Source: Okeania sp. SIO3B5
GTDB lineage: Bacteria; Cyanobacteriota; Cyanobacteriia; Cyanobacteriales; Microcoleaceae
Length of the DNA: 33,844 nt
Assembly (NCBI RefSeq): GCF_010692555.1
Contig: NZ_JAAHHG010000006.1
Span: 54,664-88,507, forward strand
Reading direction: 5' to 3'
The notes under the pieces were generated by a model that saw only the letters and a program-made list of their open reading frames with translations, did not search any database and had not been told where the DNA came from. A program made the position numbers and the translations under genes. Positions within the stretch are counted from its first letter, which is position 1; every line of letters starts with the position of its first letter. Shown piece after piece: positions 1 through 16,075 of this stretch.

Positions 1-75
1 TGTTTCACTGAAGACCACCGACCACAGTCTGCAAACTTATCTTCTCCACAGGCTTAAATTCGCTCTTGACTCAAG
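1..75 (-). ncRNA. Right-end region of IS200/IS605 element, possible omega RNA
   Basis: This stretch lies just downstream of the tnpB stop codon. In IS200/IS605 elements the 3' end of tnpB and the adjoining right end are known to encode the omega (guide-scaffold) RNA. On the minus strand one reading frame is open in part (VKSEFKPVEKISLQTVVGG, then a stop), which suggests the original tnpB C-terminus ran into this region before the frame decayed. The element's outer boundary is not visible because the window starts here. The RNA assignment rests on position only; I did not find a folded scaffold. Confidence 0.3.
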
Positions 76-1168
76 CTACTGATTCACATAGTTTTTCAGG
101 TTGATAGCAGCATTCAAATCTCTATCAGCTTCAAAGCCGCATTCACTACACTCATAAGTTCTCAAGTGTAACGGCATTTTCTGTTGATGCCCACAGTTTG
201 AACATATTTGAGAACTTGGATAATATCTATCCGCTATGACTAATTCACTGCCGTACCATTCACTTTTGTATGTAAGTTGACGTTTAAATTCATAAAAACC
301 ACAGTCTGCTATGGCACTTGCTAGTTTATGGTTTTTGAGCATTCCACTTACATTGTCATACCTCAATTACTATGGTGCTGTGGTTTTTAGCTAACCATGA
401 TGTGAGTTTATGTAATGCATCTGCTCTAATATCAGCTACTTTCTTGTGGAGTTTTGCTAGTTTTTTTACTGCTTTGCGTCTGTTTTTGGAGCCAATAACT
501 TTTTTACTGACTGCACGTTGATGACGAACTAATCTTTTTTTTGCTTGCCTGTAGGCTTTAACATTGGCAAATTTAGTTCCATCGGAACAGGTTGCTAATG
601 TATTTATTCCTATATCTACACCTATAGTTTCTCGGGCTTTTTCTGTTGGACAGGGTTCAAAATTGTATTTAAAACTGATGTACCAACTATCTGCTTTTTT
701 TGTTAGCGAAGCTCCTCTGAAAGAGGCTACGGTGACGTTTTTTACTGGTACTGGAGGTAAGATTTCATAAGTTTTTACTACTCCTATTCTGGGTAATTGT
801 ATGTAGTTTCCTTGGAAAATCTTAATACTTCCTTCTAAGTAAAAGCTGTCTTTTCTTCCTTTTTTCTTGAATTTTGGGAATCCACGTTCAGGAATAGTTA
901 GAAAGTTTTTAAATGCTCTGTCTAAATCTCTTAATGCTTGTTGTGGGGCACATTTAGATACCTCATAATACCATGGATTAATTGATTTGACTTCGGCTAC
1001 TAAACGTTTATGCAAGGTAATTGCGCTTGGGCGTTTTTTAGTTTCTTCGTACTCTTTTATACAAGTTGCTAACCCCCAATTATAAGCATGACGTGCAACT
1101 CCTGCGTGTTTGGCAAGTATTGTTTTTTGTTGATTGTTAAGTTTTAACTTGGTCTTGATTGATTTCAT
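76..1168 (-). pseudogene. tnpB: Frameshifted TnpB (IS200/IS605-family RNA-guided nuclease)
   Basis: TnpB is the RNA-guided nuclease of IS200/IS605 elements. The sequence shows an N-terminal helix-turn-helix part beginning MKSIKTKLKLNNQQ, the RuvC-I motif with its Asp (IGVDIG), the RuvC-II Glu (STIVIE), a C-terminal zinc finger (CSNCGH ... CSECG) and the RuvC-III Asp (DRDLNAA). All three acidic catalytic residues survive. The frame breaks near 356-366, directly after the RuvC-II Glu: seven bases separate the Glu codon from the NVSGM codons where six are expected, so a one-base insertion is the likely cause. The ATG at 1168 fits the family start; the open frame extends upstream to 1282 but that part has no family character. 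No tnpA is seen in the window. A short palindromic repeat (about 706-736) adds ASFRGASL to the protein. The gene is probably inactive unless translation slips at the junction. Confidence 0.88.
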
Positions 1169-1299
1169 TGGAACTGGTAAACCATGAAAAAAAGCATTTG
1201 ATAAATTAGGAGAATTGAATATACCATAGCAGATAATCAGCAGGTTTTCAAGATTTATTGAGATTTTTCTAACTTTGTCCAATTATTCGGCTTCAGTAG

Positions 1300-1623
1300 T
1301 TAGCCCCCATGGGAATATATCCCATCAAAAGATTCTTGCAGTTCCATTGATAACACATTACCTTCTACTACTTTTACCCGATTTCCCAAACGAGCTTTAC
1401 CCCGCTCTAACATAGCAGGACTAAAATCTATGCCAGTTATCTCATAGCTGGAATCTAATTCGAGTAGTTTTTCTGCAAGTAATCCCGTTCCTACACCTAT
1501 TTCGAGCAGTTTTTTCCGACCTTTGAGGATAGAGTCGAGGGACTGAGATTCTTTCGGATAGTCGTAATACCCACTCTCCATAAGTAAGTCATAATACTGG
1601 GCAATGTCATCGTATTTATTCAT
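1300..1623 (-). pseudogene. Class I SAM-dependent methyltransferase, 3' end lost
   Basis: The N-terminal third of a small class I methyltransferase is present, with motif I LEIGVGTGLLAEKL and the acidic motif ITGIDFSPAML. It ends abruptly after FDGIYSHGG, where homologues continue, and the tnpB element begins within about 20 bp. The IS insertion or a linked deletion therefore removed the C-terminal half. The start at 1623 is supported by GGAAGGAG about 9 bases upstream; the open frame reaching 1665 overlaps the GNAT gene and is unlikely to be used. It lies 16 bp after the GNAT gene and was probably the third cistron of the aminotransferase-GNAT operon. The original substrate is unknown. Confidence 0.75.
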
Positions 1624-1639
1624 AAGTTGTTTCTCCTTC

Positions 1640-2296
1640 CTATTTCCAGGCTGTAATGTTATCATTTTTCAATTCCATCAATACCATATCTGCTAGTTCT
1701 CCATTAGGCATCGGCCATGATTTATACATGATTTCTCTAACTACAAAATCGAGATTTTTAAACATATTAATTGACCTGTTATTTGATAGCAAAATTACGG
1801 CTCCAATTGTTTGAATATGCAATTCCTGGAATGCATAAAGAATTAGTCGTTTTAATGCTAGGGTTCCATAGCCTTTATTTCTGTATTTTTTATCCATAAT
1901 TGCTATACCAATTTCAGTAGTTAACAAATCCATGTTTAAGCCTTTTAATACTACATATCCAATGGGAAAATTGTCTTTGTTTAGATAAATTCCAAATGGT
2001 AGAGGCTGACTTTTGCGAGAATAGGGGAAAGCGTAACTTGAAATTGCCTCTATAAATTCTTCCGTCTCATCAGGATTAAAGAATGTATTCCAACCAAGTA
2101 AATCTATTAAACTTTCGTCTTGAGCAAGCTTAATTAAGTGCTTAACATGACTATTTGCCATAGAAGCTAAAAAAAACTTCGATCCTGCTGCTTTATGTTC
2201 TTGCTCTAATAATATTCTTTCATTCATAATTCTGTTATAACTTGAATTTAGCCATTCAAAGCTAATGGGTTTGACAACAGAAATTTTCGTAGTCAT
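1640..2296 (-). CDS. GNAT-family N-acetyltransferase
   Basis: The 218-residue protein has the GNAT fold signature. The acetyl-CoA pyrophosphate loop appears as RNKGYGTLALKRL, preceded by a beta strand (TEIGIAIMDKKY) and followed by the typical NNRSINMFKNLDF segment of RimJ/RimL-like members. It would transfer acetyl from acetyl-CoA to an amine; the substrate cannot be read from sequence. Its ATG shares one base with the stop codon of the upstream aminotransferase (TAATG), so the two are probably translationally coupled and may act on related compounds. In-frame starts at 2317 and 2335 exist inside the aminotransferase gene but are less economical. Confidence 0.8.
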   Translation of the reverse strand: MTTKISVVKPISFEWLNSSYNRIMNERILLEQEHKAAGSKFFLASMANSHVKHLIKLAQDESLIDLLGWNTFFNPDETEEFIEAISSYAFPYSRKSQPLPFGIYLNKDNFPIGYVVLKGLNMDLLTTEIGIAIMDKKYRNKGYGTLALKRLILYAFQELHIQTIGAVILLSNNRSINMFKNLDFVVREIMYKSWPMPNGELADMVLMELKNDNITAWK

Positions 2297-3516
2297 TAAA
2301 CTAAAATAGTCGCACATCCGACAAGTATGCCACAAGCTTTCTCCATATCTTCCCGACGACCCAAAGTGCTTAAGCGTAAAAAACCTTCTCCACTCGAACC
2401 AAACAATGAACCAGGTACACCAACAATACCTGCTTTCAACAACAGTTGATTAAAAACATCCCAAGAACTCATTCCCTCCACTCCTTTGACCCATATATAG
2501 GGATTATTAGTTCCACCAAAACAGGTCAGTCCAAAAGCTTCTAAACCTTCCCTAAGAATTCTAGCATTTTCTAGGTAGTACTTAACAATTTCTTGGCATT
2601 CTTGTTGACACTGTTCCGACAAAGCAGCAATTCCCCCTTGTTGTGCTAAATTAGAAGCTCCCCAAAACCGGATAGATTGACTAATTCTAAACATCTCGTT
2701 CAACTCTCCTGCTACAGTGCTTTCAATAGTTAGCTCAACAGGAACCACAGACCAACCTAATCTTAATCCAGAAAATCCAGCCGTTTTAGAAAAACTACCA
2801 ACTTCGATCGCACATTCAGTTGCCCCCTCTATTTCATAAATACTTCTAGGAATGTTCGGATCAGTAATAAAAGCACTATAAACCGCATCAAAAATAATCA
2901 GAGACTTATGGTTTCTGGCATAATCCACAAAAGCTTTGAGTTGTTCTTTGCTAGCAACTCCTCCTGTCGGGTTATTAGGAAAACAGAGATAAATTACATC
3001 CACTTTTGACTGAGGAACATCTGGCACAAAATTATTTTTATCGTTGCACTCTAGATAAATAATATTATTTCGACCTGCCAACAAATTTGTTTCTAAATAT
3101 GGGGGGTAAATCGGGTCTTGTAGCGCAATAACATTATCTAGACCAAAGAGTTCTTGAATACCAAAAGTACCTGACTGCGCCCCATCACTAACAAAAATTT
3201 CCTCCGGTTTTAGATTAACTCCACGAGGCTTATAGTAGTTGTTGCAGATCGCTTCTCTTAACTTAATATTTCCATCAAGTTCCCCATATCCTGTATAAGT
3301 TGATTGATGACCAAGCTTTGTAGCAGCATCAACTAAAGCTTCAACAACTTTTGATGGTATAGGATGAGTTGTATCACCCCACGCCATCATGTATATTTCT
3401 TTTTGGGGATTGGATGCTTGATGATCTTCAACCGTCTTAATTAGCTTGTTTTTAATCATATCGGCGAAGGTATCAGAAGCAAACAATTGACTCAGATTTG
3501 GATTTGTTGTAGTCAT
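2296..3516 (-). CDS. PLP-dependent class I/II aminotransferase, LL-DAP aminotransferase-like
   Basis: This 406-residue fold-type I aminotransferase resembles LL-diaminopimelate aminotransferase (DapL). Shared signatures are AWGDTTHPIP near the N-terminus (GDTTEPIP in DapL), IFVSDGAQSG at 107-116, FPNNPTGG at 179-186, the PLP lysine K244 in SFSKTAGFSGLRLGW, D210 and Y213 for the cofactor ring, and R381 in GFLRLS as the likely substrate-carboxylate anchor. Length matches DapL (about 410). It is unlikely to be the housekeeping lysine enzyme, because it sits beside a 2-hydroxyacid dehydrogenase and methyltransferases; an amino-acid-to-2-oxoacid step (for example methionine to 4-methylthio-2-oxobutyrate) is inferred. 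It leads an operon with the GNAT gene and the truncated methyltransferase. Its start lies only 16 bp from the divergent dehydrogenase start, and no Shine-Dalgarno sequence is evident. Confidence 0.87.
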   Translation of the reverse strand: MTTTNPNLSQLFASDTFADMIKNKLIKTVEDHQASNPQKEIYMMAWGDTTHPIPSKVVEALVDAATKLGHQSTYTGYGELDGNIKLREAICNNYYKPRGVNLKPEEIFVSDGAQSGTFGIQELFGLDNVIALQDPIYPPYLETNLLAGRNNIIYLECNDKNNFVPDVPQSKVDVIYLCFPNNPTGGVASKEQLKAFVDYARNHKSLIIFDAVYSAFITDPNIPRSIYEIEGATECAIEVGSFSKTAGFSGLRLGWSVVPVELTIESTVAGELNEMFRISQSIRFWGASNLAQQGGIAALSEQCQQECQEIVKYYLENARILREGLEAFGLTCFGGTNNPYIWVKGVEGMSSWDVFNQLLLKAGIVGVPGSLFGSSGEGFLRLSTLGRREDMEKACGILVGCATILV

Positions 3517-3532
3517 ATTTAGGATTTTGGTT

Positions 3533-4465
3533 ATGTTTTCAATACTTATAATTTATGAAGCTGAAAATCTGGAACTATTGGTTACGGAGCTCAAGGCAAG
3601 TATACCAGATATCGATATCCAATTCTGGCCAGAAGTAGAGAACCCAGAGAAAATAGAAGCCATATTAACATGGAAACCTCCTCTAGGAATAATGGAAAAA
3701 TTTCCGAACCTCAAAGGAATTATTTCCCTGGGAGCGGGAGTAGAACAGATTTTAAGAGACCCCCATCTTCCCCAAAATGTACCCATTGTTCGTATTGTTG
3801 AACCTTGTCTGACATCAAGAATGACTGAATACATATTGTTAGCTGTTCTTCGTTTTCACAGACAAGCATTTCAATATCAAACATTTCAAAAAGCACGAAA
3901 TTGGGAACCTTTACCTCTACCAGAAACCAGTTCCTGTAATATAGGAATTTTGGGTCTTGGTGTTCTTGGAACAGATGCTGCTGTGAAACTCAAGACTCTT
4001 GGTTTCCCGATTCGGGGTTGGAGTCGGACACCAAAGAACATTGATGGTATAGAGTGTTTTCATGGACCAGACCAGTTAAAACTTTGCTTGAGTAAATGTC
4101 GAGTGCTAGTGTGTTTACTTCCCTTAACCCCAGAAACAGAAGGGATTCTTAATGGTGAAACATTTTCAGCCATGCCTAAAGGAAGTTATTTGATTAATGT
4201 TGCACGGGGGCAACACTTAGTAGAAACCGATTTATTAGAAGCATTAGATTCAGGTCAACTTTCAGGCGCTTGTCTAGATGTTTTCTCTAGGGAACCTTTG
4301 CCAGAAAGTCATCCATTTTGGTCACACCCTCAAATTACAATCACACCCCATGTAGCAACTCAAACTGATTCTGAATATTGGACAAAACCGATTATAGATG
4401 CTATTTTTTGCCTTCGTGATGGTCTTCCTGTGAAGAATGTCGTGAATTGTGAACAAGGTTACTAA
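3533..4465 (+). CDS. D-isomer-specific 2-hydroxyacid dehydrogenase, GhrA-like
   Basis: The 310-residue enzyme belongs to the glyoxylate/hydroxypyruvate reductase A branch. It has an N-terminal substrate domain with ISLGAGVEQILRDPHLP, the nucleotide-binding loop GLGVLG (141-146), GWSRTPK (162-168), whose Arg suits the NADPH phosphate, and the catalytic triad R225 (NVARGQ), E254 (SREPLP) and H273 (TPHVA). It would reduce a 2-oxoacid to the 2-hydroxyacid. With the aminotransferase next door, the expected substrate is the oxoacid that enzyme makes. The ATG at 3533 is preferred over a TTG six bases earlier because AGGA stands 8 bases before it. It is divergent from the aminotransferase and convergent with the aldolase-family gene (22 bp between stops). 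Confidence 0.88.
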   Translation: MFSILIIYEAENLELLVTELKASIPDIDIQFWPEVENPEKIEAILTWKPPLGIMEKFPNLKGIISLGAGVEQILRDPHLPQNVPIVRIVEPCLTSRMTEYILLAVLRFHRQAFQYQTFQKARNWEPLPLPETSSCNIGILGLGVLGTDAAVKLKTLGFPIRGWSRTPKNIDGIECFHGPDQLKLCLSKCRVLVCLLPLTPETEGILNGETFSAMPKGSYLINVARGQHLVETDLLEALDSGQLSGACLDVFSREPLPESHPFWSHPQITITPHVATQTDSEYWTKPIIDAIFCLRDGLPVKNVVNCEQGY

Positions 4466-4487
4466 GGTTTCCATTCAATAAAGACTA

Positions 4488-5273
4488 CTACTGACGATAT
4501 GAGGAATCGAGGCGATCGAGCAAACGGCGATTTGCTTCCCATACCCTTGCAACCTCCTGGTTATGGAAGCTTGGTTCCTCAAACTGGCGGGCGGTATGTT
4601 CACAAATGTCAGGTGCTGGTATAATGGTTTTGGCTCCACTACTTAGGACGTTGACCTGGATCTGGCACGCTTGATTCAGATAATACATATAGTAAAATGC
4701 TTCGGCGACGGTTCGCCCCACAGTTAAAAGTCCGTGGTTACGCAGGATTAAACATTTCTTTTCCCCCAGGGATGCAACAATTCGCTCGCGCTCATCAAGG
4801 TCTAGTGATATGCCCTCATAATCATGGTAGGCAACACGATTATAGAATTCCATTGATGCTTGGTTAAGTGGCAACAAACCTTCTTCCATAGCAGCAACTG
4901 CCATACCACTAATAGTATGACTGTGGGCGATCGCATGAGCATTAGGACAACCTAAATGAATAGCGCTATGGATGGTAAATCCGGCCGGATTTACCTCAGC
5001 ATCTGTAGCATCAATTTTGTTGCCATTGATATCAACTCGCACTAAATTTGATGCACATATCTCATCGAAAAGCAGACCATGGGGATTAAGAAGGAATATA
5101 GCTGGTTCCTCCTGAATGCGCACAGAAATATGGCTGTAGATCATATCCGTCATACCGTAGTGGTGAATCAAGCGGTATGCAGCAGCAAGGTCTTCGCGCA
5201 AGTTCTGTTCATCCTGGGAGTAGGACTTGGTTGCAGTTTCCCTAGTTTTTGTAATGCTCATACTTGTATTCAT
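4488..5273 (-). CDS. Class II aldolase/adducin-family protein without the aldolase Glu
   Basis: The 261-residue protein has the class II aldolase/adducin fold. The metal-ligand histidines are H117 and H119 (AIAHSHT) and H180 (RNHGLLTVG). Aligned on fuculose-1-phosphate aldolase, the catalytic Glu73 position is Gly98 here (NPAGFTIH), so retro-aldol chemistry is unlikely; adducin-like members share this form. The family also contains CloR/NovR-type non-heme iron oxygenases, which oxidatively decarboxylate 2-oxo and 2-hydroxy acids. In this neighbourhood a decarboxylation of a 2-hydroxyacid is an attractive but unproven role. The start at 5273 is the longest form; ATG at 5261 is an alternative. 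A small inverted-repeat element begins about 20 bp upstream, so any promoter must lie in that element or beyond it. Confidence 0.8.
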   Translation of the reverse strand: MNTSMSITKTRETATKSYSQDEQNLREDLAAAYRLIHHYGMTDMIYSHISVRIQEEPAIFLLNPHGLLFDEICASNLVRVDINGNKIDATDAEVNPAGFTIHSAIHLGCPNAHAIAHSHTISGMAVAAMEEGLLPLNQASMEFYNRVAYHDYEGISLDLDERERIVASLGEKKCLILRNHGLLTVGRTVAEAFYYMYYLNQACQIQVNVLSSGAKTIIPAPDICEHTARQFEEPSFHNQEVARVWEANRRLLDRLDSSYRQ

Positions 5274-5293
5274 AGTTAAACCAATGTTAATTA

Positions 5294-5858
5294 GGGCTTA
5301 CAGATCTAATTTAAAATCATTGACAGATTTTACTAATAGACATCTCCAGAAAAGAGGGAACAGGGAACAGGGAACAGGGGAAACCCACCCCTAACCCCTC
5401 CCAGGAGGGGACTAATTGATAATTTATGGGTAAGAATTGATTTTATTTTTGATTTTTGGAGATGTCTAATGGATAATGGATAATTGATAATTGATAATTA
5501 ATCGAATCTAGCTTTAAAGCCTCTTTATTTTAAGGAGAAGAAAGAAATACAGCATATTTCGGGCAAATGAGCTACAGGGTAAATGATGAAAATATTGTAG
5601 TGCGGGCATCTTGCCCGCGATGAGTGTACCTCATAACAACGGAAAGCGCTGTAAGATTTCCTTATATTCAATTCCGTAACGGTTTTAACCAGAGGTAATT
5701 ATCCATTATTCATTATCCATTATCCATTATCAATTAATGAAGACTACTTCTTCTATAACTCCCATTCATCCTGACTCCTGACTTCCCCTCCTGGGAGGGG
5801 GAGGGGCGAGGGGTGGGTTGACTCCTACCCTTACCAAAAGACTTCCATAAGCAGACCC
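5294..5858. mobile_element. MITE-B copy 1, interrupted by MITE-A
   Basis: The left end GGGCTTACAGATCTAA follows TAATTA (5288-5293), and the right end CATAAGCAGACCC precedes TAATTA (5859-5864). The interior holds a full MITE-A (5338-5467), degenerate TGGATAA-type repeats and G/C-rich AGGGGAGGGG-like tracts. The ends match the other MITE-B copies in the window. No gene was seen in this stretch. Confidence 0.65.
5338..5467. mobile_element. MITE-A copy 1
   Basis: This 130-bp element has perfect 10-bp terminal inverted repeats (AGACATCTCC ... GGAGATGTCT), flanked by AAT on both sides. The interior contains an (AACAGGG)n heptamer array near 5358-5380. It is inserted inside MITE-B copy 1. A second full copy lies at 33545-33685 and a one-ended remnant at 15340-15365. 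It carries no coding capacity. Confidence 0.75.
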
Positions 5859-5864
5859 TAATTA

Positions 5865-6074
5865 GGGCTTGCTGATTAAATCTAAAAGCATTTACAAATA
5901 AAGGTAAGTGCCTTTTTAGGTCTGAAATACCTTGGTTTTCAGCTCTTCATGCTCAAAAAGTTAGCATTTTTGCTGCTGAGTTGGGCAAAAAAATTCTCCC
6001 CTACTCCCCTACTCCCCTACTCCCCTACTCCCCCGCTCCCCTACTCCTGAAGAAAGACTTCCATAAGCAAACCC
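5865..6074. mobile_element. MITE-B copy 2
   Basis: This 210-bp element runs from GGGCTTGCTGATTAAATC to CCATAAGCAAACCC and is flanked by TAATTA on both sides (5859-5864 and 6075-6080). It shares its left TAATTA with copy 1, so the two look like successive insertions at a duplicated target. The right half holds an octamer array (CTACTCCC) around 6000-6045. Its last base forms part of the stop codon of the double methyltransferase gene. Confidence 0.75.
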
Positions 6075-7900
6075 TAATTAGCATTAAATGAAATCAGCAA
6101 AATCTCTTCAGGAAAGTAATAGACAGAGTTTCTCATCAATGAGCTTAGGTATCTCTCCATCTCTGGATGAGACAGTAATTCTTCCAAGGTAATCTCGTGT
6201 GATTCAGATAACTGCTCTGTTTCCTTATCCTTGTTAAAGCAGTTAACTGTTGCCTCGTGTTTGATGTAATGCTCTAAACCTGCATGGTCATCTGCTTTGA
6301 TTGGCTCTTCATAGAATACCCTATGGACTTGATGCTGAATCCCACATTCATCCATAATCTCTATGACATCTTCAGCGGAGGTAAATCCTTCCCCTTTTCC
6401 CTCTTTAAAAATTTGCAGATATTGCTCGTAGAAATCGACGTAAAAAGATTTACGAGTAGCCAAAGCAATAAATCCAATTCCCGTATCCTTCAGCAAACTA
6501 GCACACTTTTTCAATACAGATGGCAAATCCTGGCGTGGAATCATATAAAAGCCGTGCATCGACCACAATAAGTCGTAAGCATTTTTTTCCAGATTAGCCG
6601 ATTGAATTGTATTAACATATTGGTTCCCTCGCTGTAAGGGAAGATGTATTTTCTGACTAGCTTGAGCAATTGAACTCCCAGAAGGATCTAAGCAATCGTA
6701 GACAATATTGCCAATTTTTTCATCAAGTTGGATGTAGTGACTAAAAGCTTGCAACCAGCGCCCTGTCCCACAGGCAACATCCAGTAATCTCAGAGATGAA
6801 TTTTCGCCTTGATGATATTGTGAGAAAAAGGTACTCAACCAGTCAAAACGCTGCGCCAATTGCCAATAATCAATTACTGGATCTTTGTCTTCTGGACTTC
6901 TTTGTTGAACAGTAACACTAGGAACTGGCAATACAAAAACCCCTATCGGTTCATTTATAAAAGCTTTCCCACTGTCCTCAATCTCAGCCAATCTCCAAAA
7001 TCCCTGGAGAATTTTGAAAAATTTGGTTTCCTGAAGTTGGCGTAAATCGCATTCCATACAAAAGGACATAATTTTAACGCCAGTTTCCAACCCTTGGAGA
7101 CATTCAGTCACATCCAAGCGAGCATCAACATGGTGATACTGATGCGGATGAGATTGAGTATCCAGTAAATTTCTAATGTCCTCTGCTGTAAACATCTCGT
7201 TTTGGTTCCCTTTTGCTTCCAGCATAAACTCACGCTGAATTTGAGGAATACCTGTAGCTGTTTGGTGAACAATCACCACCCGTCCGCCTTCCTTCGTTTG
7301 CTTTAAAGCTCTCTGAATTGCTTCGTAAGGCTTGTCAAAGTAATATAAAACATGGGTCAACAGCACTAAATCGTACTTCTGTTCCTTTTCAAACCTATCG
7401 GGTTCAAAATACTCATCACGCACGGATACTTCTACATTTGGGCCTAAAGATACCCGATCGAGCCGTTCTAGAAAGCGTCTGCTATGGATAGGGTTGGGTT
7501 CAAGTGCTACATATTTTAACTGTTTCCACTGTGGGTTAAGTCTGGGAATCAGACTCTGTATAATTTCGATATCAATATCGCCTTCACCACTACCAATACT
7601 GAGTACCGAGAAGGTATCGTCTTTCTGTGAGGGTGAATAACTCCCCTCCAGTAATTCTGTGACATTATTGCGGAACCACTCAATGGCAGCAACTGTCATC
7701 GTCGAAGCTGCCTTGCGTAACTCATAACTCTCAGCGTAAAACTCATCATCCAGTGGTGGAGCGACAAATTTTTGATGGTGTGGCGACTGACGATCTATGT
7801 CAGAAGATTTCAAGTTCTCTGGAAATTTGTATTGAGTTTTCATTTTAAAAATCAGGTAAGGATTGAGAATTTCGCTAATTTTGTCCTTCAAGTCAGTCAT
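6074..7900 (-). CDS. Tandem SAM-methyltransferase protein, HNMT-like N-domain; candidate DsyGD-type enzyme
   Basis: The 608-residue soluble protein contains two Rossmann methyltransferase modules. Module 1 (about 1-330) resembles histamine N-methyltransferase: motif I LSIGSGEGDID (100-110), ALEPNP (E134), HVLYYFDKP, FTAEDIRNLLD, LDVTECLQG and a C-terminal GKAFINEPIGVFVL strand. Module 2 (about 340-608) has LLDVACGTGRW (372-382) and D405 in CLDPSG, then WSMHGFYMIPR. Both SAM sites look intact. DsyGD, a two-domain DMSP-synthesis protein (MTHB S-methyltransferase plus DMSHB decarboxylase), has been reported from some filamentous cyanobacteria as I recall, and the neighbouring genes fit, but identity is not shown. 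The open frame continues to 8002, but residues before this ATG come from a MITE-C element. The ATG itself lies at the element junction and has no clear ribosome site; ATG at 7843 (MKTQYKF) is an alternative. The stop codon lies at the edge of MITE-B copy 2. Confidence 0.75.
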   Translation of the reverse strand: MTDLKDKISEILNPYLIFKMKTQYKFPENLKSSDIDRQSPHHQKFVAPPLDDEFYAESYELRKAASTMTVAAIEWFRNNVTELLEGSYSPSQKDDTFSVLSIGSGEGDIDIEIIQSLIPRLNPQWKQLKYVALEPNPIHSRRFLERLDRVSLGPNVEVSVRDEYFEPDRFEKEQKYDLVLLTHVLYYFDKPYEAIQRALKQTKEGGRVVIVHQTATGIPQIQREFMLEAKGNQNEMFTAEDIRNLLDTQSHPHQYHHVDARLDVTECLQGLETGVKIMSFCMECDLRQLQETKFFKILQGFWRLAEIEDSGKAFINEPIGVFVLPVPSVTVQQRSPEDKDPVIDYWQLAQRFDWLSTFFSQYHQGENSSLRLLDVACGTGRWLQAFSHYIQLDEKIGNIVYDCLDPSGSSIAQASQKIHLPLQRGNQYVNTIQSANLEKNAYDLLWSMHGFYMIPRQDLPSVLKKCASLLKDTGIGFIALATRKSFYVDFYEQYLQIFKEGKGEGFTSAEDVIEIMDECGIQHQVHRVFYEEPIKADDHAGLEHYIKHEATVNCFNKDKETEQLSESHEITLEELLSHPEMERYLSSLMRNSVYYFPEEILLISFNAN

Positions 7901-8027
7901 ATCATGTCCGGTTGAATAATTAGACAATGGTTGTCCGAAGGCAGGAGGCAGGAGGCAGGAGGCAGAAGGTTTTCTCAAGAGTGTCACCTTTATTTTATAC
8001 ACGCTCCGATGCTACCGGACATGATAT
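7899..8027. mobile_element. MITE-C copy 1 at the start of the double methyltransferase gene
   Basis: This 129-bp element has inverted ends ATATCATGTCCGG (7899-7911) and CCGGACATGATAT (8015-8027). It contains a heptamer array of GGCAGGA units at about 7943-7970. On the minus strand its terminal bases AT join a G to make the ATG at 7900. Related copies lie in 33001-33414, and a single end lies at 22547-22559. Confidence 0.75.
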
Positions 8028-8115
8028 TATAGCGCTGTGCGCAGGTAACAGGCAACAGGCAACAGCTCATCTGGGGGAGGGTTAGTAAATTAGGGTATGA
8101 TATTAATCTTAATTA

Positions 8116-8355
8116 GGGTTTGCTGAATAAAGTATGAGTGGTAGGGGTAGGAGTCAGAATTCAGAATCCATAATTCAGGAGGAATGGGAATTATAGAAGA
8201 AGTAGTCAGAAAAATCGTCCCAAGATTGCTCTGCCATAATCGTCCCAAAATACTAGCTTTTTGAGACCCCTAGACCGAAAATATGCGCACTTTTTTCGAC
8301 CAAAAAAGGCTGAAACCAATATCAGTCAATGCTTTAATATTTAATCAGCAAGCCC
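8116..8355. mobile_element. MITE-B copy 3
   Basis: This 240-bp element runs from GGGTTTGCTGAATAAAG to TTTAATCAGCAAGCCC and is flanked by TAATTA on both sides (8110-8115 and 8356-8361). The flanks beyond (TATGATATTAATCT on the left, TTTAGGAGTCAGGAGG on the right) match those of the copy at 22222-22463, so both sit in copies of another repeat or moved as one composite. No open frame of note. Confidence 0.75.
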
Positions 8356-8442
8356 TAATTATTTAGGAGTCAGGAGGGAAGAAAGAAGAAGAAAGAGTAG
8401 CAGAAGGAGAAAGTTTTTTGTTCGCGTTCTTATCAGGACAAG

Positions 8443-8567
8443 ATATAGCGCTGTGCGCAGGCAACAGGCAACAGCTTATCTGGGGGAATAAAAAACCTAT
8501 AATATAACATTTTTAGCTATTGGACACCTCCTGTAATTTGTAAATATGCCAGCGCACATTGCTATAT
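8443..8567. mobile_element. MITE-D copy, uninterrupted
   Basis: This 125-bp element has imperfect inverted ends, ATATAGC-N2-TGTGCGC-N-GGCA against its complement near 8547-8567. A left-end fragment occurs at about 8028-8075. A second copy (about 8583-8976) is split by MITE-B copy 4. It carries the uninterrupted sequence GTAAATATGCC at about 8546-8556, the empty site for that insertion. Confidence 0.65.
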
Positions 8568-8582
8568 AATACCTCAAATCAA

Positions 8583-8976
8583 CAACGCTACAGGGGGAAT
8601 AAAAAGCAATATAAGATTTTAGCTATTGGACACCTCCTGTAATTTGTAAATAGGGTTTACTGAAAAAGTCTTTTAGTAGGGGTAGGAGACAGGAGACAAC
8701 CCACACCTCGCCCCTCCCCCTCCCAACCCACCCCTAGCCCCTCCCAGGAGGGGAGGGGAAAACAGGAGACAGGAGAAATGGTTCGGGAGCGAGGAGGTAG
8801 AAGTAAGAATTGTCCCAAGATTGTTCTGCCCAAATCTTGACCAAAATCCTAAATTTTTGAACCATTACCACTTAAAACCTCACACTTTTTGATACTTAAA
8901 AAGGCTAAAACCTTTATCTATAAAGACTTTTAGATTTAATCAACAAGCCCTAAATATGCCAGCGCACATTGCTATA
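8583..8976. mobile_element. MITE-D copy split by MITE-B copy 4
   Basis: Sequence matching the uninterrupted MITE-D (GGACACCTCCTGTAATTTG, then ATGCCAGCGCACATTGC) is divided by 298 bp of MITE-B at 8653-8950. The left terminus is degenerate. With the neighbouring elements this leaves 7.9-9.3 kb without any gene I can support. The short open frame at 9116-9304 is repeat-derived. Confidence 0.65.
8653..8950. mobile_element. MITE-B copy 4 with 6-bp target duplication
   Basis: The element runs from GGGTTTACTG to TCAACAAGCCC and is flanked by TAAATA on both sides (8647-8652 and 8951-8956). The uninterrupted MITE-D copy has a single TAAATA at the same place, so the 6-bp target duplication is seen directly. 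The interior contains AGGAGAC-like units and a C-rich tract. Confidence 0.85.
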
Positions 8977-9319
8977 TCATTGAAAATTGGTTTTTCCAAC
9001 CCACAGAAACGTTCCATTGAACATCCGTTCTTAGAAACCTACGATTATCTATATAAATCTATGATTTTCTCTAAATAATCTGTTCTATTCTTGCTTCTAC
9101 CTGGTAACGTCGGCGCTATCCAGTCCACAAGCTGTCACGGTCGAATTGACCGCCATAGCTAGATTTAATGCTGCATTTCCTACGGAATGCTACGCAAACA
9201 AATCTCGTTCGCGCTAGCGTTGCGGAGCAATCGCAACTAAAATTGCAGTGTTCGCAATAGAAAACGCGCTCTGATAAAGACAGAGACTCGCGATTCAGTT
9301 CCACTTAGCGGAATGATAC

Positions 9320-9360
9320 AAAAAAATAGTGGAGCAGACAAGGTTACCTACCCCACTATA
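9320..9360 (-). terminator. Intrinsic terminator after rbcS
   Basis: On the minus strand the hairpin arms ATAGTGG and CCACTAT (9353-9359 and 9326-9332) enclose an internal loop region and are followed by a run of seven T residues. It lies about 25 bp after the rbcS stop and would end the rbcL-rbcX-rbcS transcript. Confidence 0.8.
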
Positions 9361-9382
9361 ACTAAATTAATTTAGCAATGAA

Positions 9383-9718
9383 TTAGTATCTTCTTTGATT
9401 AGGCTTGTGTACGATGAAGCTCAATACTTGACATTGCTTCACGTTATCAAAACCCATTACACGAATAAAGCAATCAGGATTTTCACTACGGCAAGCATCA
9501 ATTTCCATCAAAACTTCTTCAACTGTTTTGGCATGGAATATAGGTAACTTCCACAAAGTCCAGTAGTGCATTTCTGGTGCAGAAGACTCGCTGAATTCTA
9601 CACCAGGGATGAAACCTTGCTCTAGAATATACCCAATCTGCTTGCGAGTTTGCATATCTGTCAGAGGAGGCAAATAGGAAAGGGTTTCAAAACGACGCTC
9701 TTTTGGTAATGTTCTCAT
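9383..9718 (-). CDS. rbcS: RuBisCO small subunit
   Basis: The 111-residue protein is a cyanobacterial form IB small subunit. It opens with [19 protein letters not shown] and has the conserved [11 protein letters not shown] stretch and the [10 protein letters not shown] strand; the length is normal. Eight copies cap the L8 core of RuBisCO, the carbon-fixing enzyme of the carboxysome. It is the last gene of the rbcL-rbcX-rbcS operon, 117 bp after rbcX, and a hairpin terminator follows closely. No strong Shine-Dalgarno sequence precedes the ATG. Confidence 0.98.
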
Positions 9719-9835
9719 TGATTTTTTGACTGTTTAATAAATGTGCTAGGAAGCTGAATTTTAAATCAATCAAGATTTTAGACCTCAGCCCCCGGTCTCT
9801 CCGTGGAGGGAATTTTTAACCGCAAATTTTCGTGG

Positions 9836-10216
9836 CTAATCTGTTTGTTGCTCTGGATCTAAACTAGGGTCTGCTATTTCCAGTTGCGTTATCTTCTCAA
9901 GATACCGACGGCGATGTTCCATATTATCTTTCTGAATACCACTGCGAACCATCTCTGGTAAATACTCAGTCACTTCCTCTGCTAAATGCTCTCGAACGGT
10001 CATCACTCTAAATGCTAATTCTTTATTTTCCTGGAGCAACTCTTGTAGGTAAGCTTCTCCATCTTGAATTTTGCCTGTTGAGGAAAAACCACTTAACCAA
10101 ATTGCTAAGGGAGGGTTCGTCTCTCGTAACTGAGCAGTTACAGTCCGCACAGCTTGATAGGTCAGGTAGCTCGTCAGTACCTTTGCAGTATCTTTCGCAA
10201 CTTTTTTAATATCCAT
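9836..10216 (-). CDS. rbcX: RuBisCO assembly chaperone RbcX
   Basis: The 126-residue, largely helical protein begins MDIKKVAKDTAKVLTSYLTY and contains the NPPLAIWLSGFS and MTVREHLAEEVTEYLPEM stretches typical of RbcX. RbcX acts as a dimer that clamps the C-terminal [12 protein letters not shown]-type peptide of newly folded RbcL and promotes L8 core assembly. Its position between rbcL and rbcS is the classic cyanobacterial arrangement. The tail after about residue 110 is acidic and variable, as usual. The 139-bp gap to rbcL contains a short AAAATCTA-type repeat. Confidence 0.97.
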   Translation of the reverse strand: MDIKKVAKDTAKVLTSYLTYQAVRTVTAQLRETNPPLAIWLSGFSSTGKIQDGEAYLQELLQENKELAFRVMTVREHLAEEVTEYLPEMVRSGIQKDNMEHRRRYLEKITQLEIADPSLDPEQQTD

Positions 10217-10355
10217 TTTTGACCCCAGCCTGAATATTCTTGTTAGACTTTAGATTTTAGATTGAGGATCGATCTAATCCTTTAGCAGACAAGTTTGACA
10301 TATCTATCTCATAATTGCCATCTAAAATCTAAAATCCCACATCTCAAAGATAGAC

Positions 10356-11786
10356 TTAGAGGGTATCCATTGCCTCGAACTCGAACTTGATTTCTTTCCA
10401 TAGTTCGCAAGCAACGGCCAAGTCAGGAGACCACTTAGCAGCTTCACGAATTACATCGCCACCTTCTTTGAAGAGGTTACGACCTTCGTTACGAGCTTGG
10501 ATACAAGCTTCTAGAGCTACACGGTTAGCTGTTGCACCAGGAGCATTACCCCAAGGGTGACCCAAAGTACCACCACCGAACTGTAGGCAGGAATCATCAC
10601 CAAAGATTTCAACCAAAGCTGGCATATGCCAAACGTGAATACCACCAGAAGCAACTGGCATTACACCAGGCATGGACGCCCAATCTTGAGTAAAGTAAAT
10701 ACCACGTTCGCGGTCTTGCTCGATGTGGTCTTCCCGCATTAGGTCAACAAAGCCCATAGTGATACCTTTTTCACCTTCGAGCTTACCAACAACTGTACCA
10801 GAGTGTAGGTGGTCTCCACCAGACATTCTCAAGCACTTAGCCAAAACGCGGAAGTGAATACCATGAGCTTTCTGACGGTCAATTACAGCGTGCATTGCCC
10901 GGTGGATGTGTAATAACACACCGTTACGACGACACCATTTGGCCAAAGTTGTATTTGCAGTAAAACCACCAGTTAGGTAGTCGTGCATGATGATTGGAGT
11001 GCCAATTTCCTTAGCAAACTCAGCACGCTCCATCATTTGTTCAACGGTGGGGGCAGTTACGTTGAGGTAGTGGCCCTTAATTTCACCAGTTTCAGCTTGG
11101 GCCTTTTCAATAGCTTCTTGAACAAACAGGAAGCGATCGCGCCAACGCATGAAAGGCTGAGAGTTAATATTTTCGTCATCCTTTGTGAAGTCCAAACCAC
11201 CGCGCAAGCATTCATATACTGCTCTACCGTAGTTCTTAGCAGATAGACCCAACTTAGGCTTAATAGTACAACCTAATAGAGGACGACCATACTTGTTTAA
11301 TTTGTCACGCTCTACAGTAATACCATGAGGAGGACCTTCAAAAGTCTTGAGATAAGCTACAGGAATCCGCATATCTTCCAGACGTAGCGCTCGTAATGCT
11401 TTAAAACCAAATACGTTACCTACAATAGAGGTCAACATATTAGTTACAGAACCTTCCTCAAACAAATCTAGAGGATAGGCCACATAGCAAATGTATTGAT
11501 TATCTTCACCGGGAACTGATTCAATATCATAGCAACGACCTTTGTAGCGATCGAGGTCAGTCAACAAGTCAGTCCATACTGTTGTCCAAGTACCAGTAGA
11601 AGATTCAGCAGCTACCGCAGCACCAGCTTCTTCTGGAGGAACTCCAGGCTGAGGAGTCATCCGGAAGGCTGCCAGAACATCTGTATCTTTTGGTATGTAA
11701 TCAGGGGTGTAATAAGTTAGTTTATAGTCTTTTACTCCAGCCTGATACCCAGACTTAGACTGACTTTGTGTTTTAGCGTAACTCAT
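10356..11786 (-). CDS. rbcL: RuBisCO large subunit, form IB
   Basis: The 476-residue protein has every expected signature: the [21 protein letters not shown]-terminal stretch, KPKLGLS with the active-site lysine, [10 protein letters not shown] with the carbamylated lysine and Mg ligands near 200, [18 protein letters not shown], the loop 6 lysine in VVGKLEGE, and the C-terminus EFEAMDTL recognised by RbcX. It catalyses carboxylation of ribulose-1,5-bisphosphate in the carboxysome. The ATG at 11786 is preceded by AGGA about 10 bases upstream. It is the first gene of the operon, so the promoter should lie in the long gene-free region 11787-12813. Confidence 0.99.
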
Positions 11787-12061
11787 ATATTCTTTCCTAA
11801 GAATCTTTTCACTTCTTTCTGCTATTCAGCATACTTTTTTAGATAATATCAAGAATTAGAACTTTTCCACTTTAAAGATTATTTTTTTATTAATAATTTT
11901 TTTTAATCTGTTTGTTACATTTGTTAACTTTATCGCCATAATAATCAAAAATAAATCAAGTGAATAATTACTTATTGACAAAAAAACACAGATATGCAAT
12001 GTAAAAACAACCTTAATTATTCAAGATTAAATATTGAACAAGTACAAGGGATCGTCATTTT

Positions 12062-12092
12062 AGTTATCAGTTATCAGTTATCAGTTATCAGT
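12062..12092. repeat. Heptamer tandem repeat (TTATCAG)4
   Basis: Four head-to-tail copies of TTATCAG lie upstream of rbcL. This is a short tandemly repeated repetitive (STRR) sequence of the kind common in filamentous cyanobacteria. Confidence 0.85.
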
Positions 12093-12351
12093 AAAAAAAT
12101 GATAGATTCACTAAAAATGCAAGGTTATAGTAGCTAACCGATCGGGAAAAATTTGACTCTAATTTTATGTAGAAATTATTGCTATTATCAAGATAACATA
12201 ATTACTTTTTCTAGAAAAAATAAGCATTTAAGACAAGAAAAAATCGGTAAATTAATTTTGATAGAGCGCTCATTATTAAGCACCTTTCTATTTAGAACTA
12301 CTACCACAGTCTGACTCAAGCAATCTACATTTAACTTGCATTTTTGTCCGC

Positions 12352-12389
12352 AAAGTCAAGAATAATTAGGTCTAATTATTCTTGACTTT
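12352..12389. repeat. 38-bp near-perfect palindrome upstream of rbcL
   Basis: Two 18-bp arms (AAAGTCAAGAATAATTAG and its exact complement) are separated by two bases (GT). The arms could form a long cruciform or RNA hairpin. No T run follows on either strand, so it is not a standard intrinsic terminator. It sits about 565 bp upstream of rbcL and about 425 bp upstream of the kinase gene. Confidence 0.8.
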
Positions 12390-12813
12390 TAATAAATTTG
12401 TTTCGCACTATTACCTGTTGCCTATTATTTGTAGTGAAAATATAATTAAATTTCCTGGTTGTGGTGCATAGTAATGGTACAGACAGTGTGGGGAGATGAG
12501 GAGCGTATCAGTGCAGTGCGAGCGTCTCGCTCGCGAGTGGGGAGTGTGGAGAGAAATTAAGAAATATATATCTTCAGCGTTAAAGTCCTACGTTGTACAT
12601 ATTCTTGGACAATTGCTTTAAGGCTTTAAAATCCTGGCTAGACAGATTTCTAATTTTGTTCTTTTGGGTCAGATACATAATTAATTTTCGCACCTATAAT
12701 ACATCTAATAGCGAAAATCACGCTGAAATGCCAACTTGACTACGCTTTATTGCCAATCGAGTCGTTTCCATCCACAGCTTAAAAGACTGTAGTTTCCCAC
12801 TTATCGAAAGTTT

Positions 12814-14652
12814 ATGATGACTGTACATCAGTCTGTTTTATCAAAAGTCCACTGTATCAATCCCCATTGTCTAAGTCCAATCCAGGCATGGGGAAATAAC
12901 TTTTGTCAAAGTTGTGGAACCCCACTACTAATTAACGATCGCTACATTCCCCTGCGAAAATTAAGCGCTGGTGGATTTGCGAAAATCTACATTGTTTGGG
13001 ACCAAGAAACTCAAACCGAACGTATTCTGAAAGTATTATTAGAAAGCTCTCCCAAAGCACTCGAACTATTCGACCAAGAGGCGTGGGTGCTAGCCAATAT
13101 GCGTCATTCAGGTATTCCTAGAGTAGAAACAGGAGACTATTTTCATCTACGCAAGCGAAATAGTCAGCCAGCAATTGGCCACTCTAGCCAATGGTTTCTC
13201 CCATGCCTAGTCATGGAAAAAATTGATGGTTGTACCCTAGAAGAAATTCTGGAACAATATCCCCAAGGATGTCCAGATTTCTATGTAATCAATTGGCTTT
13301 CCCAAGCGGTAGAAATTTTATGGGAATTACACCGCCGGAAAATTATTCACAGGGACATAAAGCCTTCTAATTTAATGTTGCGGGAAATCCAACCTTCAAC
13401 TTTGACAAAATCTTCTTTATCCTATTCTTTTCATCATCAACGAAAAAAAAGAGGTCAACTGGTCATAATTGACTTCGGAGGGGTGAAACAAATTAGTAGT
13501 TATAGAATCCAACCTAGAGAAACTTTAGCAAAACGCAGCACAACCAGATTAGTTTCTCCTGGATATAGCCCTCCAGAACAAATTAATGGAAGTGAAATAG
13601 GCCCTTTTACAGATTTTTATGCTTTGGGCCGTACTTGCATTCATTTACTAACTGGTCAATATCCAGCAGAATTGGAAGACCCCTCAACAGGTAAGCTAAA
13701 GTGGCGTCAACTTAAGCCTGTTCATCCAGCTTTGGCTAATTTACTTGATGATATGGTGAGCTTAGATGTTACCCAACGACCAGCAACAGCAGCAGAAGTG
13801 CAAGTCCGTTTAGCTAAAATTTATCGACGGCAAAAGAGGTCTCTGAGAATATATTCCTTAGCTACATTAGCTACAACTGTTAAAAATTCATTAATAGCTC
13901 AGTTGAAAAATCTCAGTGAGAATATTAATAGGTTATTTTTTACCCTGTCTAAAATTTTTAATCAAATAGTTTCAGGTTGTGTAGATACAATTTGGGAAAT
14001 GGTACTGGGGGCAATTGGGGGGAGTATTGGGGCAACATTCGGATTAATTTTTGCTTATTGGTCAGGAATAGGCGATCGCCTCGCTAGTATATTTACGAAT
14101 CTAATTTTTCTTGTGTGGGATGTTCCCCTAAATATTGGTCCGGAAATACTTGTCTTTGGTTTGGCAGGTTTGGGAACGGGAGTTGGTTTAACAGATGTGG
14201 GAGGTTTAGGTCAACGTCGTCGTTATGGGTGGGCTGCATTTATGGGAATTATTGGTTACATTTTGGGTGGGTTATGTTGGCAATTTTCCCAAGTTGGCAG
14301 TAGCGTCTACACGACAAAAGAAGATTTAATTATCCTAGAAATTATGGGTAAGTTATCTGTGGGGGTAGCTACTGGTGTTGTTACTCTAGGACTGGGTTTA
14401 AGAAAGCATAATTTTATTTATGCTTTGATAGTTGGTAGTTTGACAGCGATAGTTTTTTTTGGTTTAGAGCAATTTAATATTGTTCCAGAGTTATTTTTAC
14501 AGTTTACTGCAATGAATCACAGTCAACCTAATTTATTAGAATTTTTTGCGAGTATAACTTTTTTCAGTTTGTTAGGTTGCATTGGTGGTTTTTGTTTGGG
14601 TGTGAGTCATTATGCGATCGTTCCTATTTTACGGTGGTTGGGTTTACGATAA
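12814..14652 (+). CDS. Membrane Ser/Thr protein kinase with N-terminal zinc ribbon
   Basis: The 612-residue protein starts with a four-Cys zinc ribbon (C14, C19, C31, C34). A Hanks-type kinase domain follows (about 44-330): Gly loop LSAGGFAKIY, K73 in ERILKVLL, catalytic HRDIKPSN (D181, N186), DFGG (D220) and SPGYSPPEQ as the activation-segment end. All catalytic residues are present. From about 385 onward there are roughly six hydrophobic segments rich in Gly, such as VLGAIGGSIGATFGLIFAYW, so the C-terminus is a multi-span membrane domain. This layout is typical of cyanobacterial Pkn kinases; the signal and targets are unknown. The gene is monocistronic. ATG at 12814 and 12817 are both possible, with no clear ribosome site. 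Confidence 0.9.
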   Translation: MMTVHQSVLSKVHCINPHCLSPIQAWGNNFCQSCGTPLLINDRYIPLRKLSAGGFAKIYIVWDQETQTERILKVLLESSPKALELFDQEAWVLANMRHSGIPRVETGDYFHLRKRNSQPAIGHSSQWFLPCLVMEKIDGCTLEEILEQYPQGCPDFYVINWLSQAVEILWELHRRKIIHRDIKPSNLMLREIQPSTLTKSSLSYSFHHQRKKRGQLVIIDFGGVKQISSYRIQPRETLAKRSTTRLVSPGYSPPEQINGSEIGPFTDFYALGRTCIHLLTGQYPAELEDPSTGKLKWRQLKPVHPALANLLDDMVSLDVTQRPATAAEVQVRLAKIYRRQKRSLRIYSLATLATTVKNSLIAQLKNLSENINRLFFTLSKIFNQIVSGCVDTIWEMVLGAIGGSIGATFGLIFAYWSGIGDRLASIFTNLIFLVWDVPLNIGPEILVFGLAGLGTGVGLTDVGGLGQRRRYGWAAFMGIIGYILGGLCWQFSQVGSSVYTTKEDLIILEIMGKLSVGVATGVVTLGLGLRKHNFIYALIVGSLTAIVFFGLEQFNIVPELFLQFTAMNHSQPNLLEFFASITFFSLLGCIGGFCLGVSHYAIVPILRWLGLR

Positions 14653-15459: not shown

Positions 15460-16075
15460 CTATTCACCTTGAATCTGTATAGCATCACCAGTTAAAGTGA
15501 TGGCTGTTGCCGGCAAAGCTCGTAGCATAATATTACGAGCGCCGTTCCAATCCCGGTGTGCAGTATATCCGCACTGCGGACATTGAAACTTTTTATTTCC
15601 ACCTAATTGCTTGTGAACATGACCGCATTCAGGACAAGTTTTTGAAGTATAGGATTCATTACACAATACTAATAAAACATTATGTCTATTAGCCATCTGG
15701 ATTAAATGCTGCTGAAACTTGTAATGGCTCCATGAGAGCATATTTCGAGCCGTCCGTTTATTTAGTTTGCGGCCAGACTTGACTACCATGGAAGATGTAG
15801 AAAAAGTAGGCAAAAAGATAACTTTGTATTCTTTTACTAAAAACTGTGCAACTTTCCATACGCAAATCCTTAACTAGACTTTGAATTTTTTCCCTAATGC
15901 GATAACTTGCTTTACGCATTGCTCGTCGTTGACGTTTAGCCACGCTTAAGTCAATGCGACTCATTAAATTATCTAAATGGGAACACAACCTTTGAATTTT
16001 TCCCATATCTCTATTGCCAAATTCCACAATTTTTTCCCCATCATATCCAGTGATAAAAGTACGCACTCCAGGGTC
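15460..16075 (-). pseudogene. Decayed TnpB remnant (second lineage)
   Basis: On the minus strand the remnant begins at the RuvC-I motif (DPGVRTFITGYDGE, Asp at 16073-16075) and runs through a helical segment to LVKDLR. It is then frameshifted near 15780-15850 and resumes at FSTSSMVVKSGRKLNKRTAR. The zinc finger (CPECGH ... CPQCG) and the RuvC-III region (HRDWNGARNI) are present. A stop precedes the RuvC-I Asp, and the whole N-terminal domain is missing. The sequence differs clearly from the tnpB at 76-1168, so it derives from another IS200/IS605-type lineage. Inactive. Confidence 0.87.

Follow-up and report, generated by a model that had tools for sequence, protein, structure and literature searches.

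The transamination route to dimethylsulfoniopropionate (DMSP) takes an amino acid to its 2-oxo acid and on to the 2-hydroxy acid, which is then methylated with S-adenosylmethionine (SAM) and oxidatively decarboxylated (PMC11306096). DsyGD, a protein of 494 residues in which a methyltransferase is joined to a ureidoglycolate-lyase domain (PF04115), is known from two cyanobacteria, filamentous cyanobacteria being among the hosts; the available portion of the same source describes knowledge of the oxidative decarboxylation of 4-dimethylsulfonio-2-hydroxybutyrate (DMSHB) as still lacking (PMC11306096). Here we describe a cluster of four genes in a stretch of 33,844 nucleotides from Okeania sp. SIO3B5 (NCBI RefSeq assembly GCF_010692555.1, contig NZ_JAAHHG010000006.1, positions 54,664 to 88,507 of the forward strand), the whole of which is referred to as the window. 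The genes encode an aminotransferase, a dehydrogenase, a double methyltransferase and an aldolase-fold protein. We consider it plausible, if short of probable, that they constitute one pathway, from an amino acid through the 2-oxo acid and the 2-hydroxy acid to methylation and the oxidative loss of CO2. The first-pass annotation of this DNA had placed the four enzymes together, and all four are present, with their families verified by profile search:

6074..7843, minus strand: two-module SAM-dependent methyltransferase, 589 residues from the conserved ATG, with the stop at 6074
4488..5273, minus strand: class II aldolase/adducin-fold protein, proposed NovR/TqaM-like oxidative decarboxylase on the basis of family and profile matches
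3527..4465, plus strand: D-2-hydroxyacid dehydrogenase, GhrA-related, proposed 2-oxo acid reductase, between the aminotransferase and the aldolase-fold gene
2296..3516, minus strand: DapL-family aminotransferase paralogue with changed recognition residues L80, Q114 and W285

Related loci were sought with six exact peptide patterns in one genome per species (84,980 species), a scan that can miss distant relatives. It returned 11 loci besides the window, hosted by Okeania (two), Moorena (two), Hydrocoleum, Hormoscilla, Symploca, Leptolyngbya cf. ectocarpi and metagenome-assembled genomes (MAGs) of 'Cyanothece', Calothrix and Nostocaceae. Most of the host genera are marine. The four genes keep the same order and orientation (double methyltransferase, aldolase-fold gene, reductase on the opposite strand, aminotransferase) in seven of the 11 (L047, L048, L049, L050, L051, L054 and L056), or eight of 12 with the window included, a count that requires the aldolase-fold gene by definition. 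Because this arrangement recurs in seven of the 11 loci of other genomes, the cluster is more than a chance neighborhood, and the co-conservation that the first-pass annotation had offered as a check is borne out. Candidates for the whole DMSP transamination set (aminotransferase, reductase, methyltransferase and decarboxylase, with functions taken from family) stand together in the same eight loci.

The spacer between the methyltransferase and the aldolase-fold gene measures 800 bases in the window, fewer than 140 in six of the other seven four-gene loci and approximately 495 in L047. The aldolase-fold gene lies some 3.4 kb from the reductase in L050 and some 1.2 kb in L047. Extra sequence or genes occur within the cluster in L047, L048, L049, L050 and L056. 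Moorena bouillonii carries a partial tandem duplication (L048, 13669-14923) comprising the aminotransferase start, the methyltransferase end and a second aldolase-fold gene, and a gene of the CmcI/rhamnosyl O-methyltransferase family lies inside the cluster of the Calothrix MAG (L049, 12926-13675) and of the Nostocaceae MAG (L056, 1385-2134). A contig end cuts the methyltransferase in L051 and L056. L046 retains the methyltransferase together with an aldolase-fold gene that is cut, and a fragment of the aminotransferase is present on a different contig (L077). In L052, L053 and L055 no copy of the remaining three genes was found close by, and L055 holds methyltransferase pieces only.

The ratio of nonsynonymous to synonymous substitution (dN/dS) was calculated for the window against the other loci, and for L049 against L056, which is a subset of all possible pairs. 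It ranged from 0.103 to 0.301 in 27 whole-gene pairs (four for the methyltransferase, eight for the aldolase-fold gene, seven for the reductase and eight for the aminotransferase), and from 0.145 to 0.219 for the methyltransferase modules taken separately in the same four pairs. The tested pairs of cluster genes are under purifying selection. The methyltransferase is rare. Matches at E ≤ 0.001 were found in 13 of 386 genomes sampled across the phylum; both modules were matched at high identity only in the window's genome and in G360 (as two contig pieces), and the remaining 11 genomes matched one module only, at 21-32% identity. Within the five genomes of the window's genus, the methyltransferase is intact in the window's own, in pieces in two and without a match (E ≤ 1e-20) in two. 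The piece in G561 contains three stops and adjoins rbcX and rbcS, as in the window, and the pieces in G598 are identical to those of L055 (Okeania sp. SIO1I7). We infer that the cluster was lost within this genus.

The length of the methyltransferase required correction. The first-pass annotation had given 608 residues from a start near 7900, and the longest open reading frame has 642; the ATG at 7843 is the one common to the relatives (51-88% identity) and yields 589 residues. The protein consists of an HNMT-like module (residues ~25-315) and a second module (~325-589), each with SAM-binding motif I (IGSGEGD and VACGTGR in the window). HNMT was the sole sequence match of module 1 in the Protein Data Bank (PDB) below E 0.001 (E 1.1e-5; query 98-285 on chain 53-246). 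In a fold search with a predicted model of mean pLDDT 67.8, in which the HNMT range was taken as module 1 from the sequence match, five HNMT chains scored TM 0.74-0.80 by HNMT length, the highest among the 50 chains listed, and the next scored 0.62. The tandem plant PMTs came first by E-value, at TM of about 0.3. The HNMT-like module noticed earlier is therefore upheld by sequence and by predicted fold. Tyr147 and Phe243 of HNMT align with Tyr189 and Phe282, and Gln143 with His185, in the numbering of a 610-residue stretch rather than of the 589-residue protein. The substrate contacts of HNMT include Glu28, Gln143 and Asn283, and Tyr147 and Phe243 are likewise named as contacts (PMC9867436). 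Glu28 and Asn283 fall outside the aligned range. The window protein differs from HNMT in being bacterial, in its fusion to a second module and in having His185 at the place of Gln143. The OvoA mercaptohistidine N-methyltransferase model gave a weak match in seven of ten alignment rows. Since the Gln143 contact is changed and the OvoA match is sub-threshold, a heteroaromatic nitrogen as the target of module 1 would be a guess from the family.

For module 2 (low-confidence model, mean pLDDT 62.1), the first hits of Foldseek by E-value were phosphoethanolamine methyltransferases; by TM normalized to query length, HNMT chains stood highest among the 50 listed (0.55-0.57, rmsd 8-9 Å). The PHROGs matches were to general methyltransferases only. 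Aligned to each other, modules 1 and 2 gave an E-value of 0.027 and, to judge from sequence, they are related at most distantly.

A search for PF04115 in 291 genomes of the order gave, among the matches listed, one frame of more than 500 residues (G444, locus L083). This 510-residue frame has both DsyGD domains and is a cyanobacterial protein of DsyGD architecture. The window methyltransferase showed no significant similarity to it by BLASTP (best E 0.03). PF04115 is absent from the window methyltransferase up to E 0.1, two methyltransferase stretches being found instead. On these two results we reject membership of DsyG. In the 12 kb on one side of the L083 gene (on the other side the contig starts about 0.6 kb away), no aminotransferase, reductase or aldolase gene was seen by eye. 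A search for the DsyG domain in the 12 genomes with the cluster, the methyltransferase or a remnant gave whole-domain matches of at most 33% identity; shorter matches (~100-165 residues) reached 43%, and the Hydrocoleum genome gave one of 42% across 165 residues. The DMSP-type pathway of the first-pass annotation thus stands in part: the co-conservation and the enzyme classes fit the route, but the connection to DsyGD is not supported. That annotation had paired two outcomes as telling against it, of which the grouping of the methyltransferase away from DsyG was observed, whereas a lack of co-conservation was not. The cluster shares with the DMSP transamination pathway its reaction logic and its filamentous cyanobacterial hosts. 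It differs in the methyltransferase and its architecture, with two modules, and in having an aldolase-fold protein in place of the PF04115 DsyD domain.

The aminotransferase scored 461.8 bits against the NCBIfam DapL 'plant' model (cut-off 364.7), and its closest PDB matches are DapLs and ALD1. Three residues of Arabidopsis DapL, E97, K129 and N309, are replaced by L/F, Q/H and W, respectively, in all eight cluster copies, with two canonical DapL rows as the reference in the residue comparison and two further reference rows, taken in a wrong reading frame, left out. By alignment numbering, these correspond to E110, K142 and N321 of Chlamydomonas DapL, which have been tied to substrate recognition (PMC3102117), and in a further DapL the conserved residues of the active site include a Glu, a Lys and an Asn (PMC7113581). 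The pyridoxal phosphate (PLP) lysine K244 is kept, as are Asn182, Asp210, Tyr213 and Arg381. The likeness to DapL therefore extends to the family, the PLP lysine and R381, whereas the recognition residues differ, and the same genome holds a separate canonical DapL copy (43% identity) that keeps E, K and N. On the replaced recognition residues we reject identity with DapL itself, despite the score above the cut-off; they point to a substrate whose side chain would be uncharged or aromatic.

The best model for the reductase is GhrA, at 254.4 bits, below the equivalog cut-off of 403. Paralogues of both enzymes occur in a second cluster (L037, 3875-7431, Moorena; L122, 3413-7379, Okeania SIO2F4), which encodes a SET protein, an aminotransferase paralogue, a 2-oxoglutarate-Fe(II) oxygenase and a reductase paralogue. 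In L037 the aminotransferase and the reductase are 58% and 56% identical to those of the window, and the L122 reductase is 52% identical. The two aminotransferase paralogues have Q, I and W at the K129, E97 and N309 places. Because the same pair recurs in this second cluster, the aminotransferase and the reductase are suggested to form a unit that makes a 2-hydroxy acid and is combined with different partners.

NovR and TqaM are oxidative decarboxylases, and FucA has a catalytic Glu73 together with three metal histidines. The aldolase-fold protein belongs to NCBIfam subfamily PRK07044 (341 bits, cut-off 207). A profile of nine members (eight close relatives and one at 36%) matched, in order, an unnamed class II protein, a protein named as a fuculose aldolase, adducin, NovR (E 1.3e-55) and TqaM (E 3.7e-52); the PDB name of one match is 'Decarboxylase NovR'. 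His92, His94 and His155 of Escherichia coli FucA correspond to His117, His119 and His180, and Glu73 corresponds to Gly98, a place occupied by Ala in NovR and by Gly in TqaM. With no equivalent of Glu73, aldolase chemistry is unlikely, though the histidines are kept. The NovR and TqaM matches favor the earlier description of a putative oxidative-decarboxylase type. The likeness to NovR and TqaM consists in strong profile matches, the kept metal histidines and the missing Glu; on the side of difference, the window protein is a member of PRK07044, adducin scores better than NovR and the reaction is predicted from sequence. A paralogue of 79% identity is found in L075 (Moorena bouillonii, 6.37 Mb; 1-12999). 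This locus is biosynthetic-looking, with an Orn/Lys/Arg-decarboxylase-like gene (and a second by eye), a Rieske oxygenase and a PhyH-type oxygenase (others by eye), a hydroxyacid dehydrogenase, an FAD enzyme and a CmcI-like protein that is 57% identical to that of the Calothrix cluster.

We infer the order of the steps, the substrate, the product and the oxidative reaction as follows. The DapL-derived aminotransferase would take the alpha-amino group off an amino acid whose side chain is uncharged or heteroaromatic, and the GhrA-related dehydrogenase would convert the 2-oxo acid to the 2-hydroxy acid. The tandem methyltransferase would then act at two sites, module 1 most likely at a ring nitrogen and module 2 at a second site, and the aldolase-fold metalloprotein would oxidatively strip the carboxyl carbon to give a methylated zwitterionic acid one carbon shorter. 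Our leading guess for the substrate is histidine, for which the product would be 1,3-dimethylimidazolium-4-acetate, the structure of zooanemonin. That the cluster is an undescribed cyanobacterial route from histidine to this dimethylimidazolium zwitterion, in which the HNMT-like double methyltransferase is a fusion and the oxidative decarboxylase has an aldolase fold, is unlikely on present evidence. Zooanemonin has been reported from the mollusc Halgerda aurantiomaculata, from the anemone Anemonia sulcata and from sponges (PMC7767343). Should the four genes indeed form one pathway, it would represent a second, independently assembled logic of transamination, reduction, methylation and decarboxylation, with enzyme families other than those of DMSP. 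With histidine as the substrate, it would mean that bacteria can be a source of a methylated imidazole zwitterion. With methionine, decarboxylation of DMSHB would fall to the aldolase-fold protein as an enzyme standing on its own, at a step for which PMC11306096 sees a gap in knowledge.

Several observations weigh against this scheme. A Gln occupies the K129 place in ALD1 as well, so the Gln alone says little; ALD1 keeps the Glu and the Asn. The Gln143 contact of HNMT is changed in module 1, and no residue proves an imidazole substrate; the OvoA match is far under its cut-off (19.7 against 170 bits), and the two protein models are of moderate to low confidence. Zooanemonin is termed a tryptophan derivative in the available portion of PMC7767343, contrary to the structure given above, and the three papers that our literature search listed included no report of it from cyanobacteria. 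The gene for an acetyltransferase of the GNAT family beside the methyltransferase is not explained by the scheme. The methyltransferase relatives in L052 and L053 (61 and 51% identity) lack the other three genes in their vicinity and are accompanied by a GNAT gene. Of the two genomes concerned, G387 gave no aldolase or reductase match, and G388 gave matches of 43 and 46%, with the reductase among housekeeping-looking genes. The methyltransferase may thus be active outside a four-gene pathway.

The production of DMSP or DMSHB from methionine would call for a new, unrelated S-methyltransferase of 4-methylthio-2-hydroxybutyrate (MTHB) and for an oxidative decarboxylase of DMSHB that stands on its own. 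Each step of the transamination pathway has its counterpart among the reaction classes, the aminotransferase has an uncharged recognition pocket (L/F, W) that suits methionine, and the host genera are mostly marine. Yet the methyltransferase lacks significant similarity to the protein of DsyGD architecture, the DsyG-domain matches in the 12 genomes are as low as given above, and module 1 is closest to an N-methyltransferase. Furthermore, a single S-methylation would suffice for DMSP, whereas both modules keep the SAM motif and are under purifying selection. We regard this route as distinctly unlikely. The shortening of N-trimethylated lysine or ornithine to valerobetaine or butyrobetaine has very little to recommend it: the replacement of the Glu and Asn recognition residues by L/F and W, both being kept in ALD1, makes it most improbable, even though DapLs and ALD1, which acts on lysine, are the closest PDB matches of the aminotransferase and tandem N-methyltransferases (plant PMT) have the best E-values in the fold search, at low TM.

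The cluster might instead supply a methylated 2-hydroxy or aryl acid that is built into a larger specialized metabolite, with another role for the aldolase-fold protein. This would suit the setting of the 79% paralogue in L075, the presence of a cyanobacterial HNMT-like gene near a tryptophan halogenase in L042 and the HNMT-like WelM3 of the wel cluster, the purpose of which is given as not known in the available portion of PMC4236562. No gene for a nonribosomal peptide synthetase or a polyketide synthase was seen by eye beside the cluster in the loci inspected, which are part of the whole set, and the aldolase-fold gene accompanies all eight four-gene loci (by the criterion of the count) and is present, although cut, in L046; we consider a building block possible but rather unlikely. 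The four genes could also be neighbors with no common pathway, the partner of the methyltransferase being the GNAT gene. In L052, L053 and L055, for which the other three were not found close by, the GNAT gene is adjacent to the methyltransferase (or to what is left of it) or not far away. We give this reading little chance, as order and orientation are kept in eight of 12 loci from several genera, and the GNAT gene is unmatched in the M. bouillonii and Symploca genomes, both of which have four-gene loci. No description of the four-gene cluster was seen among the titles listed by our literature search, three of whose listings covered 15 of 78, 10 of 2,000 and 8 of 20 records; subscription journals were mostly outside its coverage.

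The window contains these further features:

1640..2227, minus strand: GNAT-family acetyltransferase, 195 residues from the start common to relatives, a recurrent neighbor of the methyltransferase
1300..1665, minus strand: truncated class I methyltransferase fragment, of which a 242-residue form occurs close to the Moorena cluster (L036)
9383-11786: RuBisCO genes, the small subunit confirmed by search and the others by eye
76-1282 and 15460-15813: IS605-type TnpB-like transposase pieces, by eye

The TnpB-like piece at 76-1282 adjoins the truncated methyltransferase fragment. No RNA families or tRNAs were found in the window, and a promoter and terminator scan of it gave counts near those of shuffled sequence. 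A plasmid search matched one of 72,556 records, at 25.6% identity over 30% of the query. A small SET-domain-like gene adjoins a GNAT gene in L055 (11843-12911), L077 (4750-5827) and L079 (6990-8001), from Okeania and 'Cyanothece'; the SET domain was confirmed by Pfam for L079 only.

A separate cluster was seen in Moorena bouillonii (L118, 4520-9288), in Hormoscilla (L119, 891-9129) and on another contig of the window's genome (C534; L117, 1072-11949). It encodes a class I methyltransferase, which in L119 has 485 residues and two methyltransferase stretches and in L117 and L118 is represented by shorter pieces only. The cluster also encodes a single-domain PF04115 protein (about 202 residues; Pfam matches seen for L118 and L119), which shares 35-37% identity with the DsyD portion of L083, and dioxygenases resembling gamma-butyrobetaine hydroxylase. 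A PanD-type aspartate decarboxylase is present in L118 (by Pfam) and in L119 (by eye). The cluster looks like a beta-alanine betaine-type route. The available portion of PMC11306096 reports no single-domain DsyD, and it describes a red-algal DsyG-like protein with a PF02261 domain.

HNMT-like genes occur in other settings as well. In L042 (2538-9752) a stand-alone gene of this kind has around it genes for a tryptophan halogenase, FAD-dependent oxidases and a PF10017 'histidine-specific' methyltransferase, which makes the locus a candidate cluster for a tryptophan- or histidine-derived alkaloid. In the window's genome (contig C259; L044, 151-3807), tandem HNMT-like genes, one of them broken, adjoin a fragment of an aromatic amino acid lyase.

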